Assembly: GCF_022095675.1 (NCBI RefSeq)
Contig: NZ_JAHYSG010000161.1
Coordinates: 1-21,816 of the forward strand
Source of the DNA: Dactylosporangium sp. AC04546
Lineage (GTDB): Bacteria > Actinomycetota > Actinomycetes > Mycobacteriales > Micromonosporaceae
DNA length: 21,816 nt
Direction of reading: 5' to 3'
Shown: piece by piece, positions 9,539 through 18,145 of the stretch
How positions within the stretch are numbered: position 1 is the first letter of the stretch
Layout: every line of letters starts with the position of its first letter
Translations under genes and position numbers: made by a program
Notes under the pieces: model-generated
Seen by the model: the letters and a program-made list of their open reading frames with translations, nothing else
Told to the model about the DNA's origin: nothing
The model's database searches: none

Positions 9539-11509
9539 CTAGCGGCCGGCCCGCACCGCCTCGAAGTACCGCAGCGACTCCGGGTTGGCCAGGGCGCCCT
9601 TCGCGGCGGCCTGGTCGACCGGGGTGCCGGTCAGGATGCGCTTGACCGGCACCTCGAGCTTCTTGCCCGACAGCGTGCGGGGCACCGCCTCGACCTGGAA
9701 GATCTGGTCGGGCACGTGCCGCGGGGACAGCGCGGTGCGCAGCTCGCGGGCGATCGTGGCGCGCAGGGCGTCGTCGAGCGTCACGCCCGGCCGCAGCACG
9801 ACGAAGAGCAGCAGCTCGCCCGCGCCGCCCTCCGCGTCCTCCAGGTGCACCACCACCGAGTCGGCGACGTCGTCGAGGGCCTCGACCACGGAGTAGAACT
9901 CGCTGGTGCCGAGCCGCACGCCGCCCCGGTTGAGGGTGGCGTCGGAGCGGCCGGTGATCACGCAGGCGCCGGTCTCGTCGATGGTGATCCAGTCGCCGTG
10001 CCGCCAGATGCCGGGGTACGTCGAGAAATAGGCCTCGGCGTAGCGGGATCCGTCGGCGTCGCCCCAGAACCCGACCGGCATGCTCGGCATCGGCGCGGTG
10101 ATGACCAGCTCGCCCAGCTCGCCCACGACCGGCGTGCCGTCGGCGGCGAACGCCTCCACGCGGGCGCCGAGCGCGCGGCAGGCGATCTCACCGGCCCGGA
10201 CCGGCAGCAGCGGGACGCCTCCCACGAATGCGGTGCAGACGTCGGTACCGCCGGACGCCGACGCCAGCATGACGTGCTCCGACACCGCCTCGTAGACCCA
10301 CTCGAAGCCCTCCGGCGGCAGCGGCGCGCCGGTCGAGCCGACGCCGCGGAGCGCCGACAGGTCGGCGAGCTCCTTCGGGACCACACCCGCCTTCCGGCAG
10401 GACAGCAGGAAGGGCGCGGACGTCCCGAAGTACGACATCCTCGTCTCCTCGGCGACCCGCCAGAGCCAGCCGAGGTCCGGGTGCGCCGGGTTGCCGTCGA
10501 CCAGCACGATCGCGGCGCCCACGGCCGGGCCGGAGACGAGGTAGTTCCACATCATCCAGCCGGTCGTGGTGAACCAGAAGAACCGGTCGCCGGGGCCGAG
10601 GTCGTGGTGCAGGGCGAGCATCTTGAGGTGCTCCAGCAGGATGCCGCCGTGGCCGTGGACGATCGGCTTCGGCAGTCCGGTGGTACCGGAGGAGTAGAGC
10701 ACGTAGAGCGGGTGCCCGAACGGCACCGGCTCGAACGCCAGCGGCTCGTCGGTCCCGGCGGTGAGCCCGGCCCAGCCGGTGCCCTCGGCGGTCGCCTCGC
10801 TGGTGGCCTCGGCGTGGAGGTACGGGATGGTGACCAGGGTCTCGACCGACGGCAGCGCCTCGACGATCGCGGCGACCTCGGCCCGGCGGTCGACCGGCTT
10901 GTCGCCGTAGCGGTACCCGTCGACGGCCACCAGCACCTTGGGCTCGATCTGCTGCCAGCGGTCGACGACCGAGCGGGTGCCGAACTCCGGCGCGCAGCTG
11001 GAGAAGATCGCGCCGAGGCTCGCCGTCGCCAGCATGAGCACGAACGTCTCGGGGATGTTCGGCGCGTACGCGGCCACCCGGTCGCCCGGCCCGACCCCCA
11101 GCCGGCGCAGCCCGGCCCGGGCCCGGCGGACCTGCTCGCGCAGCTCGGCCGCGGTCAGCGTGACCGGCCCGCGGGTCTGCGAGCGGGCGAGCACGACCGG
11201 CTCGTCGTCGGCGATGCCGGGCATGCGCAGGACGTTCTCGGCGTAGTTGAGCCGCGCGCCGGGGAACCACTCGGCGCCGGGCATCCGCGCGTCGGCGAGG
11301 GCGGTGGTGGGCGGCTCGTGCGCGACGACCCCGAAGTGGTCCCAGACCGCCTGCCAGAACTCGGCTGGCGAGTCGACCGACCAGCGCCACAGCGCCTGGT
11401 AGCCCCCGCCGAGGTCAAGGTCACGCTCCGCCTTGAGCCAGCCCAGGAACGCCCCGATGCGGGAACGCTCGAGCACGTCTGCGGGGGGTCGCCACAGCTC
11501 CTTCGCCAT
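9539..11509 (-). CDS. Acetoacetate-CoA ligase (acetoacetyl-CoA synthetase)
   Basis: This 656-residue ANL-superfamily enzyme activates acetoacetate with ATP and CoA to acetoacetyl-CoA. Family-typical features in order: N-terminal FLGWLKAERDLDL and WRWSVDSPAEFWQAVWDHFGV, then WFPGARLNYAENVLR. Next come the P-loop YSSGTTGLPKPIVHGHGG (about 272-289), WMMWNYLVSG, YFGTSAPFLLSC, GSTGAPLPPEGFEWVYE, ASGGTDVCTAFVGG and GDWITIDETG. The catalytic-lysine segment LSGKKLEVPVKRIL lies near residue 616. The length matches the roughly 650-residue family. ATG at 11509 was chosen because GGAAG sits eight bases upstream; a longer frame from 11527 adds only MQEDDS. It probably acts in ketone-body or poly-hydroxybutyrate-derived acetoacetate use, or in precursor supply. 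It is convergent with the TIGR03089 gene, with 33 bp between stops. Confidence 0.95.
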   Translation of the reverse strand: MAKELWRPPADVLERSRIGAFLGWLKAERDLDLGGGYQALWRWSVDSPAEFWQAVWDHFGVVAHEPPTTALADARMPGAEWFPGARLNYAENVLRMPGIADDEPVVLARSQTRGPVTLTAAELREQVRRARAGLRRLGVGPGDRVAAYAPNIPETFVLMLATASLGAIFSSCAPEFGTRSVVDRWQQIEPKVLVAVDGYRYGDKPVDRRAEVAAIVEALPSVETLVTIPYLHAEATSEATAEGTGWAGLTAGTDEPLAFEPVPFGHPLYVLYSSGTTGLPKPIVHGHGGILLEHLKMLALHHDLGPGDRFFWFTTTGWMMWNYLVSGPAVGAAIVLVDGNPAHPDLGWLWRVAEETRMSYFGTSAPFLLSCRKAGVVPKELADLSALRGVGSTGAPLPPEGFEWVYEAVSEHVMLASASGGTDVCTAFVGGVPLLPVRAGEIACRALGARVEAFAADGTPVVGELGELVITAPMPSMPVGFWGDADGSRYAEAYFSTYPGIWRHGDWITIDETGACVITGRSDATLNRGGVRLGTSEFYSVVEALDDVADSVVVHLEDAEGGAGELLLFVVLRPGVTLDDALRATIARELRTALSPRHVPDQIFQVEAVPRTLSGKKLEVPVKRILTGTPVDQAAAKGALANPESLRYFEAVRAGR

Positions 11510-11531
11510 GGAGTCATCTTCCTGCACGCCC

Positions 11532-11649: not shown

Positions 11650-12699
11650 CTACTTGACCGGCTTCTCGGTGCTCGCCGTCTTCTTCTCGACCGGGCGCCG
11701 TTCGCCCGGCTGCGGCCGGGGCTGGACCCCGAAGTCGACGAACTCGAACGCGTCGGCCTGCACCACGTGGTCGGCGCCGGTCGTCGCGCTGCCCGCGTAG
11801 CGGCCGTCGGCCGAGTCGAACAGCAGGCACTCGGTGCCGCGGCAGATCACGTCGTACCCGTGGCCGGCGATCGTCGCCGTGGTGCCCACGACGCCCCCGA
11901 TCCTGCCGGTCGCGCCGTAGATCGTGGCCCGCTGCTGCGGCGTCCAGAACGGCTCGGCGTAGTGGTACAGCTCGTACAGGTCCTTCCAGAGCACCTGCTC
12001 GCCCCGGTTCGGGTAGTTCGCGTCGTACCACGCCTTCCACACGGCATACAGCGCCTGGGAGTCGGCGGGCAGGCCGGCGAGGTACTGCGGCGTCGGGCGC
12101 ACCAGGTCGCCGGGCTCGGCGGCGATCTGGTCGATCTCGGCCTGCGACAGGGCGTCGTCGATGTTCGTCGCCGCGCCGTCGGTGCGCCGGATCCGCAGCG
12201 GGGCGATCGTCTGCGGGTCGATCCAGGCCTCGTGGATGTACCGGTTGCCGCCCTCCTGGAGGTTGTACGTCTTGACGTACAACACCTTGCCGTCACCCAG
12301 CGGCCGCGGCCACGGCTGGGCGGCCGACGCCACGGCAGCCAGCCGGTCGAGCGCCGCGACCGCCTTCGCGTGCGTCGCGTCGCCGGCCCCGGTGACCGGC
12401 GGGTTGACCGGCGCCCTGGTGCCCTCCGCGACCGGGAACGGCTTCTCCGACGCGCCCGGCGCCGGCGGGCCGCCCACCTGGCTCGCCGGCCCGCCCGGGC
12501 TGAGCAGGGCCGCCGCGGCGACGATGGCGGCCACGCCGGCCGCCGCGCTGACGCTCACCGGGATCCAGCGCCGCCGCGCCCGCGGTGCCGGCTGGCCGGC
12601 TCCGGCCAACCGCCAGCGCCCCCGGGCCAGCGCGCCGTCGCGCGGCTCGTCCAGCTCGCCGCGGAACTCCCGCAGCGCCTCGATATCTCTGTCGTCCAT
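11650..12699 (-). CDS. CU044_5270-type membrane protein, partner of the ECF sigma factor
   Basis: This is a 349-residue protein. A cytoplasmic N-terminus (about 1-42, DRDIEALREFRGELDEP..., ending in Arg-rich RARRRW) is followed by one membrane helix (about 45-65, VSVSAAAGVAAIVAAAALL). An extracytoplasmic domain follows, with VLYVKTYNLQEGGNRYIHEAWIDP (roughly residues 136-159), PADSQALYAVWKAWYD, LWKDLYELYHYAEPFWTPQQRATIYGA and YDVICRGTECLLFDSADG. I recognise the architecture and motifs of the CU044_5270 family, which is regularly encoded beside ECF sigma factors. An anti-sigma or sensor role is plausible but not shown. Two ATGs are adjacent (12702 and 12699). The second is five bases after GGAG and overlaps the sigma-factor stop (TGATG), implying translational coupling. 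The C-terminal tail is Lys/Thr/Pro-rich. Confidence 0.85.
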   Translation of the reverse strand: MDDRDIEALREFRGELDEPRDGALARGRWRLAGAGQPAPRARRRWIPVSVSAAAGVAAIVAAAALLSPGGPASQVGGPPAPGASEKPFPVAEGTRAPVNPPVTGAGDATHAKAVAALDRLAAVASAAQPWPRPLGDGKVLYVKTYNLQEGGNRYIHEAWIDPQTIAPLRIRRTDGAATNIDDALSQAEIDQIAAEPGDLVRPTPQYLAGLPADSQALYAVWKAWYDANYPNRGEQVLWKDLYELYHYAEPFWTPQQRATIYGATGRIGGVVGTTATIAGHGYDVICRGTECLLFDSADGRYAGSATTGADHVVQADAFEFVDFGVQPRPQPGERRPVEKKTASTEKPVK

Positions 12700-13244
12700 C
12701 ATCGCTCCAGGTCCTCCAGCGCCTTGCGCAACTTGGTGCGGGCCCGGTGCAGCGCCGACTGAACCGTGCCGGTGGGCAGGTCGAGCGCCGCGGCGATCTC
12801 CGCATACGACAGCTCGGCGATCGCGAACAGCAGCAGGACGTCACGCTGGCGGGCCGGCAGCCTGGCGAGCACCCGCGCGATGAGCCGCGCCCGCTGCCGT
12901 GCCACCACGCGATCGTCCGTGCGCGCCTCGTGACTGTCCGCCGCCGGCGGCACCAGCAACGGGTCCGCGCCGGTCCGGGCCAGCGCCCGGTAGCCGCGCA
13001 CCTCGTCGCGGCGATGGCGGAGCAGGACGTTGGTGGCGATGCCGTACAGCCAGGGCAGCGGATCGGCGGTGCCGCGCTCGATGACGTGCCGCCGCTCGAA
13101 GGCGATCAGGAACGTCTGCGCCACCGCGTCCTCGGCGAGGTCCGGCCCGATCCGCCGCGCGCAGTAGCGGTACAGCGCTCGCGCGTGGCGGTCGTAGAGC
13201 GCCGTGAAGCCGTCCGCGATCAAGAGGTTGCCTTCCGGGTCCAC
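12699..13244 (-). CDS. ECF-type RNA polymerase sigma factor
   Basis: This sigma-70 family protein of about 181 residues contains only regions 2 and 4. Region 2 runs from FTALYDRHARALYRYCARRIG through AEDAVAQTFLIAFERR (2.2) and PWLYGIATNVLLRHRRDE (2.3-2.4, about residues 64-81). After a Pro/Ala linker, region 4 is LPARQRDVLLLFAIAELSYAEIAAALDLPTGTVQSALHRAR, the helix-turn-helix for the -35 element. The start is uncertain. GTG 13244 is the outermost family-compatible choice, but AGAGG lies only one base before it. An in-frame TTG at 13223 has GGAAGG seven bases upstream and would give 174 residues. The frame continues far upstream only as a shadow of the thioesterase gene. It is followed by the overlapping CU044_5270 gene and lies 35 bp after the thioesterase stop. 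Confidence 0.92.
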   Translation of the reverse strand: MDPEGNLLIADGFTALYDRHARALYRYCARRIGPDLAEDAVAQTFLIAFERRHVIERGTADPLPWLYGIATNVLLRHRRDEVRGYRALARTGADPLLVPPAADSHEARTDDRVVARQRARLIARVLARLPARQRDVLLLFAIAELSYAEIAAALDLPTGTVQSALHRARTKLRKALEDLER

Positions 13245-13279
13245 ACCTCTTCTTGTCCGATGCGCGGTGCGGTGTTCCC

Positions 13280-13804
13280 CTAGTTTTTCTGCATTCGATG
13301 GGCCTGGATCGCTTCCCGGCGGGCGAGACGGTGCTCGCGTCGGATTTCCGCCTCTCGCCACCGCCCCTCGTTCTCCGGCGAGTCCGGGACCACCATCGGC
13401 ACCCGCCGCGGCCTGCCCTCGGCGTCGACGGCGACGAACACGAGGTACGCCGTCGCGACCACCACCGGGGCCTCCTCGGCCACCTCGTCCCAGCGCTCCG
13501 CCACCAGCCGCACGCCGACCTCCATCGAGGTGTGGCCGGTCCAGTTGACCTGTGCGAACGCGTGCACGAGATCGCCGACCCGCAATGGCTCCAGGAAGAC
13601 GATCTCGTCGATCGAGGCGGTCACGGCCGTCCCGCCGCTGTGCCGGGCGGCGGCCGCGCCGGCGACGTCGTCGACGAACTTCATGATGACGCCGCCGTGC
13701 ACCGTCCCGTAGAGGTTCACGTCGACGGCGGTCATGATCCGGCTCAGCGTGACCCGCGAGTAACCGGTGGGACGGCTGGGCGATCGGCCGGTGTGCTCGG
13801 TCAT
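13280..13804 (-). CDS. Hotdog-fold acyl-CoA thioesterase
   Basis: This 174-residue single-hotdog enzyme is of the cytosolic acyl-CoA hydrolase (BACH/YciA-like) type and hydrolyses acyl-CoA to free acid and CoA. Key sequence is NLYGTVHGGVIMKFVDDVAG (about residues 30-49), containing the N...G..HGG....D active-site pattern. TASIDEIVFLEPLRVGDLV follows, then NWTGHTSMEVGVRLVAE and TAYLVFVAVDAEGRPRRVP. The C-terminal helix is Arg/Glu-rich. The ATG at 13804 has no Shine-Dalgarno; a TACCGT hexamer ends seven bases upstream, consistent with a leaderless mRNA. It is the first gene of a minus-strand run with the sigma factor. The much longer open frame to 15319 is an antisense shadow of the proline-rich gene. 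Confidence 0.92.
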   Translation of the reverse strand: MTEHTGRSPSRPTGYSRVTLSRIMTAVDVNLYGTVHGGVIMKFVDDVAGAAAARHSGGTAVTASIDEIVFLEPLRVGDLVHAFAQVNWTGHTSMEVGVRLVAERWDEVAEEAPVVVATAYLVFVAVDAEGRPRRVPMVVPDSPENEGRWREAEIRREHRLARREAIQAHRMQKN

Positions 13805-13811
13805 GACAAAA

Positions 13812-13821
13812 ACGGTACGGT
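13812..13821. promoter_or_regulatory. Overlapping divergent -10 elements of two leaderless genes
   Basis: The 10-bp sequence acggtacggt holds two -10 hexamers: TACCGT on the minus strand (13817-13812) and TACGGT on the plus strand (13816-13821). They share two bases. Each ends exactly seven bases before an ATG (13804 minus, 13829 plus), and neither gene has a Shine-Dalgarno. The arrangement is symmetric about position 13816.5. Confidence 0.55.
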
Positions 13822-13828
13822 GCGAGCC

Positions 13829-16588
13829 ATGCGACACGTGGGAAGCCTGATCGCGGGGATGTTGATCGCCCCGATCGCGTGGCTGCTGATCGCCATCGGG
13901 CAGCAGAAATCCACGGAAACAGTGGCAAAGTGGGTCGCGAGCGGCGCGTTCGACTCGGTCGACCTGCTCGTCCCGGCCGCCTACCTGGTCGGCGCGGGCC
14001 TGCTCATCGGCCTCATCGCCACCCTCCGCATCTCCCCGGTCGGCCCGATCGTCGCCGGCCTGGCCCTCATCGGCACGTACGTGAGCCTGTTCATCGACCC
14101 GCTGTCGACGATGAGCAGCCTGCCGGACGACCTGGACCTCGCCGGGCTGAAGGTCGACCTCCGCCTGCCGATCGCCAACGGCACCACGGCGGTGCTGGGC
14201 TTCGCCCTGCTGGTCGCCGCGGCGAGCGTGAAGCGCTGGCGCCCGTGGCCGCAGGTCGTGGCGCTGCCGGCGGGCGAGGCGGGCACGCCGGTCGACATCC
14301 ACGAGTACCCGCTGGGCCAGGGCCCGAAGTCCACCCCGCCGGTCGCCGCCCGCCCGTCCTACGGCCCGGCGAACCAGACGGCCGAGTTCGCCGCGGGGGC
14401 CGGTGCCTCGACCGCGGTCCTGCCCTCGGCGGCGCCGGGCGGCCTCGGCGCCACGGTGATCATGGGCTCCCCGGGCGCCTACCCGGGGCGGCCGACGGAC
14501 GAGACGCAGCCCGTCTCGGCGCCGCCGCCGTACGTGCCGTCGGCCTCCTCGGCCCCGCCGCAGACCTTCCAGCCGCCGGTCCCGCCCGGCTCGTTCCCGC
14601 CGCCGGGTGTCCAGAGCGCCCAGCCGCCGTTCGCGCCGGCCGTGTCGGGCCCGCCGGCGGGGTCGGGTCCGGGGTCGTTCCCGCCGCCCGTCGTGTCGGC
14701 TCCGCCCGCCGGGTCGCCTCCCGGATCGTTCCCGCCGCCCGTCGTGTCGGGTCCGCCCGCCGGGTCGCCTCCCGGATCGTTCCCGCCGCCCGTGGTGTCG
14801 GGTCCGCCCGCCGGGTCGCCTCCCGGGTCGTTCCCGCCGCCCGTCGTGTCGGCTCCGCCCGCCGGATCGTTCCCGCCGCCCGTCGTCTCCGGGCCGCCCG
14901 CCGGGCCGCCTCCCGGGTCGTTCCCGCCGCCCGTCGTGTCGGGTCCGCCCGCCGGGTCGTTCCCGCCGCCCGCTGTCCCCGGGCCGCCTCCTGGGTTCCC
15001 GCCGCCCGTCGTCTCCGGGCCGCCGGCCGCGGTGCCGGGGCCGTCCGGGACGCCGGGCGGCAAGCCCGGACCGTTCCCGCCGGCGCGGCCCGGGATGCCT
15101 CCGGCGCCCGTCCAGCCTCAGGGGTTCCCAGCCGCGGCCGGGCCGTCGTTCGCGCCGCCGACGTCCGCGCCGCCTGCCTCGGCTCAGCCGGTTTCGGGTG
15201 CTCCCTCGTCCGCGCCGCCGCTGCGGCCGGCCGGGTCGGTGGGTGAGCCGGCCTGGCTGACGCCGGAGCCGGTCGGGGAGGCGAAGCGTCCCGGGGGTGG
15301 GTACGACGGGCTGACCCAACCGCCCGCCGGGCCCGCCGCCGGCAACCCGCCTGCCCCTGCGGCCCCCGCGGCGCAGCCGCCCGCCGGTGGGCGCCCGTCC
15401 ATCGATGCGCGGCTCGCGGCCCTCGGCACCTCGGGCCCGCCCGGCGCAGCCCCGGTCTCGACACCTCCCATGTCGACTCCCCCGGCCGCGACGCCGCCGG
15501 TCTCGACGCCTCCGGCCGCCGCGCCGCCGGTGACGGCTCCCCCGGCGCCCACTCCTGCGGTGACGGCTCCCCCGGTGTCCACCGCTCAGGCGTCCACCCC
15601 GCCCGACTCAACGCCGACTGTGTCGATGCCCCCGGTGCCGACGCCGCCCGTCACGGCCCCTCCGGTCACGGCGCCGGTGGTCTCTCCGCCGCCCGCCGCC
15701 GCGCCGCCCGTGGTCGCGTCAGGCGTCCCGGCGCCGTCCGGGTCAGGGCCTTCCGGGCCGGTGGCGGGGTCGCCACCTCCGGTGGCTACCGGGTACAGCC
15801 GGTCGGCCACACAGGGGAACGGTGACGACGAGGCCACACAGGTGATCGGGCAGGCCACCGGAGCATCCGGCGGCCCCAGCGCGTCGGGCGGCCCCAGCGC
15901 GTCGGGCGGCCCCAGCGCGTCGGGCGGCCCCAGCGCGTCGGGCAGCCTCAGCGCGTCGGGCAGCCTCAGCGCCTCCAGCAGTGCCGGCGCCCCCAGCAGT
16001 GCCGGTGCCTCCGGCCTCGGCGGTGACGACGAGGCGACCGGGGCCACGACCGCTGCCGGGCTGCCCTCGCGGGCCGCCCGGGAGAACGTGCCGGCGGAGA
16101 CCTCGATCCTCGACGGGCCGTCGTTCGACGGGTTCACCCCCGTCAAGCGGGCCGGTGCCGAGGAGGAGACCGAGGCGTTCCACCCGGGACACCAGTCGCC
16201 GGCCACCCCGCGGCCGCGGCATGCGGCGCCGCCGGACGCGGGACCGTTCCCGGCAGCGCCGGCGGGGGACGAGCCCACGACCCGGCTCGGGGGTACGCCG
16301 GACCCGGACGCCACGGCCAAGCTGGGCTTCCCGCCGGCCAGCATCGACCCCGACGCCACCACGCGGCTCGGGCCCAGCGCCCAGGAGCAGGCCGAGCGGC
16401 GGGCCGCCTTCGCCCGCGGCGAGGCCGAGCGGCGGGCCAACGCCCAGTCCGAGCTCGACCGCCTGGCCGCCGAGCGGGCCGCCCGCGAGACCGGCGGCGA
16501 GCACGCCGGGGAGCCCGACGCCGACCCGCCCGGCCGCGAGAACCCGCCCGCCTCACCGTGGTCGGCCCCGCCCTCCAACCGCACCTGA
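13829..16588 (+). CDS. Four-helix membrane protein with about 780-residue proline-rich repetitive tail
   Basis: This is a 919-residue protein. Hydrophobic helices lie at about 6-23, 46-65, 70-88 and 119-134, followed by VKRWRPW. The rest is predicted disordered. It has Pro/Ala/Gly/Ser-rich sequence from about 145, eight FPPPxVxxPP units (about 284-400), and a Pro/Thr/Val-rich part (TPPVSTPPA, VTAPPVTAP, about 545-635). Six six-residue GGPSAS/GSLSAS units follow (681-716). Asp/Thr-rich motifs DDEATQVIG, DEPTTRLGG, DPDATAKLG and DPDATTRLG come next. A final charged helix (about 850-890, QEQAERRAAFARGEAERRANAQ) looks like a coiled coil. ATG 13829 begins the first membrane helix and is seven bases after a -10 hexamer. 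The FPPP runs would be slow to translate without EF-P. The function is unknown. A membrane-anchored scaffold, possibly phosphorylated on the Thr motifs, is inference. Confidence 0.88.
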   Translation: MRHVGSLIAGMLIAPIAWLLIAIGQQKSTETVAKWVASGAFDSVDLLVPAAYLVGAGLLIGLIATLRISPVGPIVAGLALIGTYVSLFIDPLSTMSSLPDDLDLAGLKVDLRLPIANGTTAVLGFALLVAAASVKRWRPWPQVVALPAGEAGTPVDIHEYPLGQGPKSTPPVAARPSYGPANQTAEFAAGAGASTAVLPSAAPGGLGATVIMGSPGAYPGRPTDETQPVSAPPPYVPSASSAPPQTFQPPVPPGSFPPPGVQSAQPPFAPAVSGPPAGSGPGSFPPPVVSAPPAGSPPGSFPPPVVSGPPAGSPPGSFPPPVVSGPPAGSPPGSFPPPVVSAPPAGSFPPPVVSGPPAGPPPGSFPPPVVSGPPAGSFPPPAVPGPPPGFPPPVVSGPPAAVPGPSGTPGGKPGPFPPARPGMPPAPVQPQGFPAAAGPSFAPPTSAPPASAQPVSGAPSSAPPLRPAGSVGEPAWLTPEPVGEAKRPGGGYDGLTQPPAGPAAGNPPAPAAPAAQPPAGGRPSIDARLAALGTSGPPGAAPVSTPPMSTPPAATPPVSTPPAAAPPVTAPPAPTPAVTAPPVSTAQASTPPDSTPTVSMPPVPTPPVTAPPVTAPVVSPPPAAAPPVVASGVPAPSGSGPSGPVAGSPPPVATGYSRSATQGNGDDEATQVIGQATGASGGPSASGGPSASGGPSASGGPSASGSLSASGSLSASSSAGAPSSAGASGLGGDDEATGATTAAGLPSRAARENVPAETSILDGPSFDGFTPVKRAGAEEETEAFHPGHQSPATPRPRHAAPPDAGPFPAAPAGDEPTTRLGGTPDPDATAKLGFPPASIDPDATTRLGPSAQEQAERRAAFARGEAERRANAQSELDRLAAERAARETGGEHAGEPDADPPGRENPPASPWSAPPSNRT
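14640..15030 (+). repeat. Tandem coding repeat, 51-bp unit (FPPPVVSGPPAGSPPGS)
   Basis: TTCCCGCCGCCCG recurs at 14678, 14729, 14780, 14831, 14870, 14921, 14960 and 14996, with spacings 51, 51, 51, 39, 51, 39 and 36. The short spacings come from loss of four or five codons, in two cases SPPG. The copies are nearly identical at the DNA level, including third positions. Confidence 0.9.
15869..15976 (+). repeat. Tandem 18-bp coding repeat (GGPSAS / GSLSAS)
   Basis: Six 18-bp units encode GGPSAS or GSLSAS. Units 1-4 (15869-15940) are identical, ggcggccccagcgcgtcg. Units 5 and 6 (15941-15976) differ by a few bases. Exact DNA identity points to recent slippage or unequal recombination. Confidence 0.93.
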
Positions 16589-16777: not shown

Positions 16778-18145
16778 ATGAGATCTCGGCGTCGCACATT
16801 CGCACTGGTGGCCGGGGCCGCGTTGACCGTCGTGACGGCGCTGGTTCTCGTGCCCACCATCCAGGCGCAGGCCGTCAGCAGTGCCGCCGCCGCGGCCTGT
16901 ACGGCGCCCACCTGGGTGGAAGGGAACACGTACACGGCGGGCACTCAGGTGACCTACAACGGGCACACCTACCAGGCGCTCGTCACCCACACCGCGTACG
17001 TCGGGGCCGGGTGGAACCCAGCCGCGGCGCCGTCGCTGTGGACGGACCTCGGCACCTGCACCGGCGGAACCACGTCGCCGTCGCCGTCGCGGACGACCTC
17101 GCCGTCCGCCAGCGCGAGCCCGAGCCGGAGCACGTCGCCCAGCCCGAGCCGTAGCCCGTCCAGCTCGCCGTCCACCTCGCCGACCGGCGGGACCTGCGGC
17201 GTGAAGTCGCGGCCGGCCGGGAAGGTGCTCCAGGGGTACTGGGAGAACTGGGACGGCGCCTCGAACGGCGTGCACCCGGGGCTCGGCTGGATCCCGATCA
17301 CCGACTCGCGCATCGCGCAGCACGGGTACAACGTCGTCAACCTGGCGTTCCCCGTCATCCGCTCCGACGGCACCGTGCTGTGGGAGAACGGCATGGACGC
17401 CGGCGTGAAGGTGCCGACGCCCGCCGAGATGTGCCAGGCCAAGGCCAACGGGCTCACGCTGCTGATGTCGATCGGCGGCGCGGCCGCGGGCATCGACCTG
17501 AGCTCCAGCACCGTCGCCGACCGGTTCGTCGCCACGATCGTGCCGATCCTCAAGGCGAACAACTTCGACGGCATCGACATCGACATCGAGACCGGGCTGA
17601 CCGGGTCGGGCAACATCAACACGCTCTCGACGTCGCAGGCCAACCTGATCCGCATCATCGACGGCGTGCTGGCGCAGATGCCGTCGAACTTCGGGCTCAC
17701 GATGGCGCCGGAGACGGCCTACGTGACCGGTGGCAGCGTCACCTACGGCTCGATCTGGGGCTCGTACCTGCCGATCATCAAGAAGTACGCCGACAACGGG
17801 CGGCTCTGGTGGCTGAACATGCAGTACTACAACGGCAGCATGTACGGCTGCGCGGGTGACTCGTACTCCGCCGGCACCGTTCAGGGCTTCACGGTGCAGA
17901 CCCAGTGCCTCAACACCGGCCTGGTCATCCAGGGCACGACGATCCGGGTGCCCTACGACAAGCAGGTCCCCGGCCTGCCCGCGCAGAGCGGCGCCGGTGG
18001 CGGCTACATGTCGCCGTCGCTGGTCAGCCAGGGGTACAACTCCTTCAACGGCCAGCTGAAGGGCCTGATGACCTGGTCGATCAACTGGGACGGCTCGAAG
18101 AGCTGGACCTTCGGCGACAACGTGAAGTCGCTGCAGGGCCGGTAA
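16778..18145 (+). CDS. Secreted GH18 chitinase with N-terminal CBM5/12 chitin-binding domain
   Basis: This is a 455-residue exported endochitinase. A signal peptide (1 to about 32: RSRRR, then a hydrophobic stretch ending IQAQA) precedes a CBM5/12 domain (about 42-94). The latter shows PTWVEGNTYTAGTQVTYNGHTYQAL and WNPAAAPSLWTDLG. A Ser/Pro/Thr linker (95-138) joins it to the GH18 barrel (about 148-455). The catalytic DxxDxDxE motif is complete: FDGIDIDIE at 263-271, with Glu271 as acid. Other GH18 marks are SIGG (231-234), MAPE (309-312), WLNMQYYN (345-352) and a C-terminal MTWSINWD (431-438). It hydrolyses beta-1,4-GlcNAc chains of chitin outside the cell. ATG 16778 starts the signal peptide, with GGGGG five bases before it. 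The gene is monocistronic, with a terminator on each side. Confidence 0.96.
   Translation: MRSRRRTFALVAGAALTVVTALVLVPTIQAQAVSSAAAAACTAPTWVEGNTYTAGTQVTYNGHTYQALVTHTAYVGAGWNPAAAPSLWTDLGTCTGGTTSPSPSRTTSPSASASPSRSTSPSPSRSPSSSPSTSPTGGTCGVKSRPAGKVLQGYWENWDGASNGVHPGLGWIPITDSRIAQHGYNVVNLAFPVIRSDGTVLWENGMDAGVKVPTPAEMCQAKANGLTLLMSIGGAAAGIDLSSSTVADRFVATIVPILKANNFDGIDIDIETGLTGSGNINTLSTSQANLIRIIDGVLAQMPSNFGLTMAPETAYVTGGSVTYGSIWGSYLPIIKKYADNGRLWWLNMQYYNGSMYGCAGDSYSAGTVQGFTVQTQCLNTGLVIQGTTIRVPYDKQVPGLPAQSGAGGGYMSPSLVSQGYNSFNGQLKGLMTWSINWDGSKSWTFGDNVKSLQGR

Follow-up and report, generated by a model that had tools for sequence, protein, structure and literature searches.

A conserved 24-bp interval with overlapping -10 boxes between two divergent, predicted leaderless genes of Dactylosporangium

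Bidirectional promoters are defined by divergent transcription starts 7–25 bp apart (PMC10268837), common distances in Escherichia coli being 18, 10 and 23 bp (PMC12825309), and their opposed -10 elements have bases in common (PMC12825309, PMC10268837). Leaderless genes of actinobacteria have a TANNNT box near the start codon and no Shine-Dalgarno sequence (PMC3898074, PMC7682106). We describe a site with opposed, overlapping -10 boxes and two predicted leaderless genes, in a stretch of 21,816 nt (the window) from Dactylosporangium sp. AC04546, of the family Micromonosporaceae; its source is contig C161 (NZ_JAHYSG010000161.1) of a 13-Mb genome in 348 contigs, with an estimated contamination of 11.5%. 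The site is the interval between a thioesterase-like gene and a divergent gene for a proline-rich membrane protein. With a probability of roughly three in four, we read this interval as a TA-sharing bidirectional promoter of the sigma70 type, with 7-nt spacers and two predicted leaderless mRNAs.

Several described systems resemble it in part. In the csoR-cueA divergon of Bradyrhizobium the -10 elements likewise overlap partly and polymerase competition has been suggested, but only csoR is leaderless, the cueA leader being 42 nt, and the box of the repressor CsoR overlaps the -10 elements (PMC5057107). The EcoRV restriction-modification system also has overlapping divergent core promoters, with mutual exclusion; there, however, control lies with a C protein encoded in the unit, and the C transcript is not leaderless (PMC5333194). 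The prpD/Rv1129c pair of Mycobacterium tuberculosis is likewise divergent with two leaderless mRNAs, but both are induced together, and the passages cited give neither its spacing nor any -10 overlap (PMC3898074); closely juxtaposed divergent promoters are called a common feature there. Exclusion, overlapping -10 elements with one leaderless mRNA, and double-leaderless pairs are known separately; within the available portions of the closest, mostly non-subscription, literature we saw no description of two leaderless genes over overlapping -10 boxes. We regard the site as real and conserved, and not as a new mechanism.

The start codons are at 13804–13802 on the minus strand, for the thioesterase, and at 13829–13831 on the plus strand, leaving 24 bp between them (13805–13828). 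Within this interval a 10-bp core, ACGGTACGGT (13812–13821), contains the two opposed -10 elements: TACCGT of the thioesterase gene (minus strand, 13817–13812) and TACGGT of the proline-rich protein gene (plus strand, 13816–13821), with T13816-A13817 common to both. On both strands exactly 7 nt separate the box from the ATG, at the upper end of the 5–7 nt taken as characteristic of leaderless genes. The initial annotation had given the two-base overlap, the 7-nt distances and the 24-bp interval exactly. Its remark that neither gene has a Shine-Dalgarno sequence was borne out when the 25 nt upstream of each ATG were scanned for GGAG, GAGG, AGGA, GGAA, AAGG and GGTG; the only match was one copy of GGTG, at position -10 of the plus gene, where it overlaps the core's end.

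In the bidirectional promoter that we propose, the two opposite-strand TANNNT boxes would share their central TA, and polymerase could bind in either orientation. Transcription would start at the A of each ATG, the eighth nucleotide after the final T of the box (13804 on the minus strand and 13829 on the plus strand, as predicted from the -10 spacing). Unlike at E. coli bidirectional promoters, both mRNAs would then be leaderless, and promoter geometry alone would fix the 24-bp distance between the start codons; compared with single leaderless genes, two genes would here diverge from a common -10 region. The predicted start-to-start distance, 25 bp, is inside the 7–25 bp definition; by simple arithmetic, boxes that share TA place the starts 23 bp apart when the spacers are 6 nt and 25 bp apart when they are 7 nt. 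Both starts would presumably be used by the housekeeping sigma factor, at a low to moderate level. At basal level the two genes would most likely be expressed side by side, with polymerase competition mattering only if one direction were strongly activated.

The full double pattern was found once in the window and in no shuffle out of 100 that preserved dinucleotides; because the pattern was defined post hoc from the site, this test alone is weak. We also counted TANNNT-to-ATG distances in 800 kb, or roughly a tenth, of a related complete chromosome, G003, sampled as 40 stretches of 20 kb, considering starts with at least 100 open codons. Counts peaked at 6 nt, with 29, and at 7 nt, with 22, whereas the 21 spacings outside 5–8 nt averaged 3.6 each; GTG starts gave 26 at 6 nt and 28 at 7 nt. 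From the 22 observed against a background of 3.6, about five in six single 7-nt matches would be real leaderless-type starts. The peak agrees with the mapped starts of Actinoplanes SE50/110, of the same family, where TAnnnT was found at 98% of starts with a mean spacing of 6.2 ± 1.1 nt, and where 1179 starts are leaderless (PMC7682106). The TANNNT spacing is a genuine leaderless signature in Dactylosporangium.

The gene pair, the length of the interval, both 7-nt spacers and the unchanged core, with both -10 elements, were found in 7/7 Dactylosporangium genomes (G000–G006). Conservation of the core in close relatives had been proposed as a check in the initial annotation, and the site passed it. 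All ten core columns were invariant, including the six positions that TANNNT leaves free, as were 6/7 columns of the plus-gene spacer; gapped columns were treated as variable in these counts.

Outside the genus, 36 further loci were compared (L011–L046, of which L042 and L043 share one genome), at least three of them beyond the family (two Actinoalloteichus, one Streptomycetaceae). TANNNT was found 6–8 nt upstream of the thioesterase start at 35/36, where the start could be any in-frame ATG or GTG within about -60 to +30 nt of the match, a choice that favours finding a box. A divergent homologue of the plus-gene N-terminus was detected at 28/36 (tblastn with an E cutoff of 1e-3, run against the 45 loci alone), some matches being weak, at 26–30% identity. 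At 25 of these 28, TANNNT lay 7–8 nt upstream of the membrane-gene start; it was not seen at L024, nor at L013 and L019, whose alignments begin at a TTG, so that their true starts are uncertain. This retention of start codon and -10 spacing in relatives, together with the spacing peak, supports as a prediction the initial claim that both genes are leaderless. The -10 sequences outside the genus vary within TANNNT (TAACGT, TAGGCT, TAAGGT and others).

At the 24 outside loci with both boxes, the starts are 45–68 bp apart and the boxes do not overlap, which makes the overlap look derived. The common state is thus a pair of leaderless-type genes, from which the Dactylosporangium overlap most likely derives by compaction, the separate leaderless-type promoters seen in relatives probably having collapsed into it by the loss of some 20–45 bp.

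We searched for further examples of the layout using the exact double pattern, CAT N7 ANNNTANNNT N7 ATG, and its reverse as a control; counts were summed by hand, and many sites are orthologues, so the counts are not independent. The seven Dactylosporangium genomes contained 21 double-pattern sites and no reversed ones. Grouped by 30-mer and flanking open reading frames (ORFs), with Pfam names taken from L127, L131, L132 and L134, these were seven thioesterase/membrane sites, seven DsrE/34-aa ORF sites, three TetR/FAD-enzyme sites (in G003 the partner frame of this site has 14 codons only) and four singles. Across 150 genomes of the family we found 104 sites, spread over 71 of them; the reversed control gave 24, a control with 10-nt spacers 17 and the reverse of the latter 16. 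Spacers of 6 nt gave 87 sites versus 41 reversed. The reversed 6-nt control had exactly one match in each of the seven Dactylosporangium genomes (G000–G006), probably one conserved unrelated site that inflates this control. The TANNNTA layout, which with 6-nt spacers gives the 18-bp distance commonest in E. coli, was tried and set aside, being little enriched among double-leaderless ATG pairs here (61 versus 34 reversed with 6-nt spacers, 24 versus 21 with 7-nt spacers).

Flanks were translated for 41 distinct sites, of which 25 were flanked on each side by an ORF of 100 aa or more, nine were a 120-aa/34-aa pair and seven had a short partner or none. By ORF length and 30-mer similarity, rather than by homology search, the 25 fall into some 14 gene pairs. 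Since a genome of 70% GC readily yields long open frames, we take the ORF counts as supporting evidence only. A phylum-wide search (94 of 246 genomes with a site) was not used, because it mixes in AT-rich genomes with many chance matches.

Some observations weigh against a bidirectional promoter. No TTGACA/TATAAT-type promoter was found in a scan of 13500–14100, and by eye the -35 positions have partial nTGACn matches only; one or both directions may therefore be weak. In the thioesterase-side spacer only 3/7 columns are invariant. The core is also not the best-conserved piece, since the longest invariant run, 13841–13861, is inside the plus gene. The conserved block exceeds the core and is lopsided toward that gene, so conservation of the core is no proof that the overlap itself is under selection.

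The same features can be taken to mean that a single promoter is real and that the other -10 box is a by-product, its gene being transcribed weakly or from farther upstream. We consider this rather unlikely. It would fit the missing -35 elements on either side and the asymmetric conservation, and about one in six single TANNNT-N7-ATG open-frame matches is expected by chance (3.6 of 22). Yet both boxes were found independently at 6–8 nt outside the genus, the 24 bp between the genes leave no room for a leader plus a promoter, and there is no Shine-Dalgarno sequence.

The initial annotation had called the interval a very compact genetic switch, with mutually exclusive transcription of the two units. 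Such a switch, in which a polymerase sitting in one orientation would shut off the opposite gene, so that cells express one unit or the other, strikes us as unlikely. Steric exclusion is the published view of such promoters (PMC12825309) and figures in a model of the overlapping divergent EcoRV promoters (PMC5333194); the exact overlap, moreover, is kept in 7/7 genomes. By analogy, binding of one polymerase at a time to the shared site, as first proposed, is likely. Mutually exclusive transcription in practice is another matter, and we found no support for it. At five of five E. coli bidirectional promoters tested, basal activity was too low for competition, and boosting one direction did repress the other (PMC12825309). 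By this precedent, switch behaviour here would be possible but not the default. Neither flanking gene matched a regulator family in Pfam, whereas in the EcoRV type a regulator is part of one of the two units, and relatives retain the pair with separate -10 boxes. As to compactness, the description holds for the 24 bp and not for something singular, since the geometry recurs in the family.

The switch had also been thought to involve an extracytoplasmic function (ECF) sigma operon behind the thioesterase gene. An ECF-type sigma factor gene is indeed present in the window (12699–13244, minus strand; Pfam Sigma70_r2/r4, searched on 12699–13265), with a start, judged by eye, at either GTG 13244 or TTG 13223. 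It is not a constant member of the locus. We found it behind the thioesterase gene in 5/7 Dactylosporangium genomes; in Dactylosporangium sucinum, the closest relative, and in G003 there was no ECF match around the pair within 20-kb stretches, the next gene after the thioesterase, within ~180–215 bp, being an AMP-binding ligase. Among the outside loci, mostly with 3.5 kb of flank, 0/36 had an ECF match. The patchy presence suggests gain or loss and makes the ECF gene a passenger that varies between genomes, rather than a switch partner. A switch driven by the ECF sigma factor was rejected as a general reading on these counts. A candidate ECF-type -35 for the thioesterase gene (TGTCGCA, on the minus strand within plus-gene codons 1–3) was dropped, because the sequence follows from the conserved MRH protein start and because its distance to the thioesterase -10 box is not kept outside the genus.

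The conserved block extends from the core to plus-gene codon 20 (13822–13888 beyond the core). Over the seven genomes, 55/60 columns of codons 1–20 were invariant, including 17/20 third positions, compared with 40/130 third positions in codons 21–150 (binomial P 8e-7). On the thioesterase side, 6/10 third positions were invariant in codons 1–10 and 2/10 in codons 11–20, in an alignment where two genomes are gapped beyond about codon 8. In other genera (21 loci compared) conservation of the first plus-gene codons is only mild. Identical codons at unchanged residues numbered 3/6 in codons 1–10, 0/6 in codons 11–20 and 10/36 in codons 21–100 in Actinoplanes; 4/7, 1/3 and 8/26 in Catellatospora; and 5/7, 4/6 and 16/39 in Hamadaea. 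From the column invariance we infer that in Dactylosporangium the first 20 codons of the plus gene may also serve as the upstream promoter sequence of the thioesterase gene. The same conservation could also stem from an operator, or from effects of codon choice in a leaderless mRNA.

An operator could in principle explain the core as well: the 10-bp tandem and the stretch up to 13888 would mainly bind some regulator, and the -10 likeness would be secondary. This would account for the invariance in 7/7 of the six core positions free under TANNNT, and for the extension of the block to codon 20 with its imperfect 24-nt tandem repeat (13846–13869 and 13870–13893). That repeat, however, may simply follow from a repeat in the protein, IAGMLIAPIAWLLIA, and the diversity of -10 sequences within TANNNT in other genera is what one expects of promoters, not of a single operator. 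An operator as the main function seems to us unlikely. A chance arrangement without function is less probable still: single-sided chance matches are not rare, but conservation, recurrence against controls and the spacing peak already disfavour it.

The genes around the interval are as first described, with a thioesterase, a proline-rich membrane protein and ECF sigma domains. The thioesterase gene (13280–13804, minus strand, predicted leaderless) encodes 174 aa of an acyl-CoA thioesterase-like protein (Pfam 4HBT, E 6.2e-19) with 95% identity to its relative in D. sucinum and 91% to that in D. fulvum. The divergent gene (13829–16588, plus strand, also predicted leaderless) translates to a 919-aa protein with a hydrophobic N-terminus and a long proline-rich tail, for which there was no Pfam family match at 1e-3. 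Behind the ECF gene is a gene at 12702–11650 that encodes a hydrophobic segment and had no Pfam match; in the window these two genes (11650–13244) sit between the thioesterase gene and the AMP-binding ligase (9539–11527, minus strand; Pfam ACAS_N, AMP-binding and AMP-binding_C), which from its domain layout we take to be of the acetoacetyl-CoA synthetase type. Downstream of the proline-rich protein gene is a chitinase-like gene with CBM5/12 and GH18 domains (16778–18145).

Other gene pairs were noted at the 24-bp double layout. A 120-aa DsrE-family gene (Pfam DsrE) shares it with a 34-aa hydrophobic ORF, MVTEIGFVSLLVAG...RGRW, that had no Pfam match (L127 10070–10099, L133 10015–10044, L067 and L084). 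The 30-mer of this pair was present in 7/7 Dactylosporangium genomes, with ORFs checked in 6/7, and the 120/34-aa pair was also found in three other genera of the family; the 34-aa ORF may be an overlooked leaderless membrane peptide. A TetR-type regulator and a flavin adenine dinucleotide (FAD)-binding enzyme (Pfam on L134) use the layout with a core containing TTACCGTACGCTGTA, at L051, L059 and L068/L134 (G000:C28, G005:C28 and G104:C1). Because one of its genes is a regulator, this pair is a better switch candidate than the thioesterase/membrane pair. Two pairs with the layout are single cases: an ArsR-type regulator lies opposite an MFS transporter at L132 10019–10048 (G006), and at L131 10096–10125 (G005) a ROK-family gene faces a membrane protein of 527 aa that has no name.

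If both starts of the thioesterase/membrane pair are used, a divergent gene pair could hardly be made smaller. A mutation in the shared TA would affect two promoters, and an insertion or deletion between a box and its ATG would disturb a transcription start and a translation start together. More tentatively, and at somewhat less than even odds, TA-sharing back-to-back leaderless pairs may be a recurrent minimal architecture of the Micromonosporaceae, which the Dactylosporangium pair joined by compaction from separate promoters, moving the upstream control region of the thioesterase gene into the first 20 codons of its neighbour. Were this so, 24 bp would hold both promoters and determine where transcription and translation of each gene begin, and codons 1–20 would encode protein on one strand and act as promoter on the other. 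The family offers a natural series of one gene pair, from separate boxes with starts 45–68 bp apart to a shared box within 24 bp, in which one could measure outside E. coli how polymerase competition affects expression and noise.

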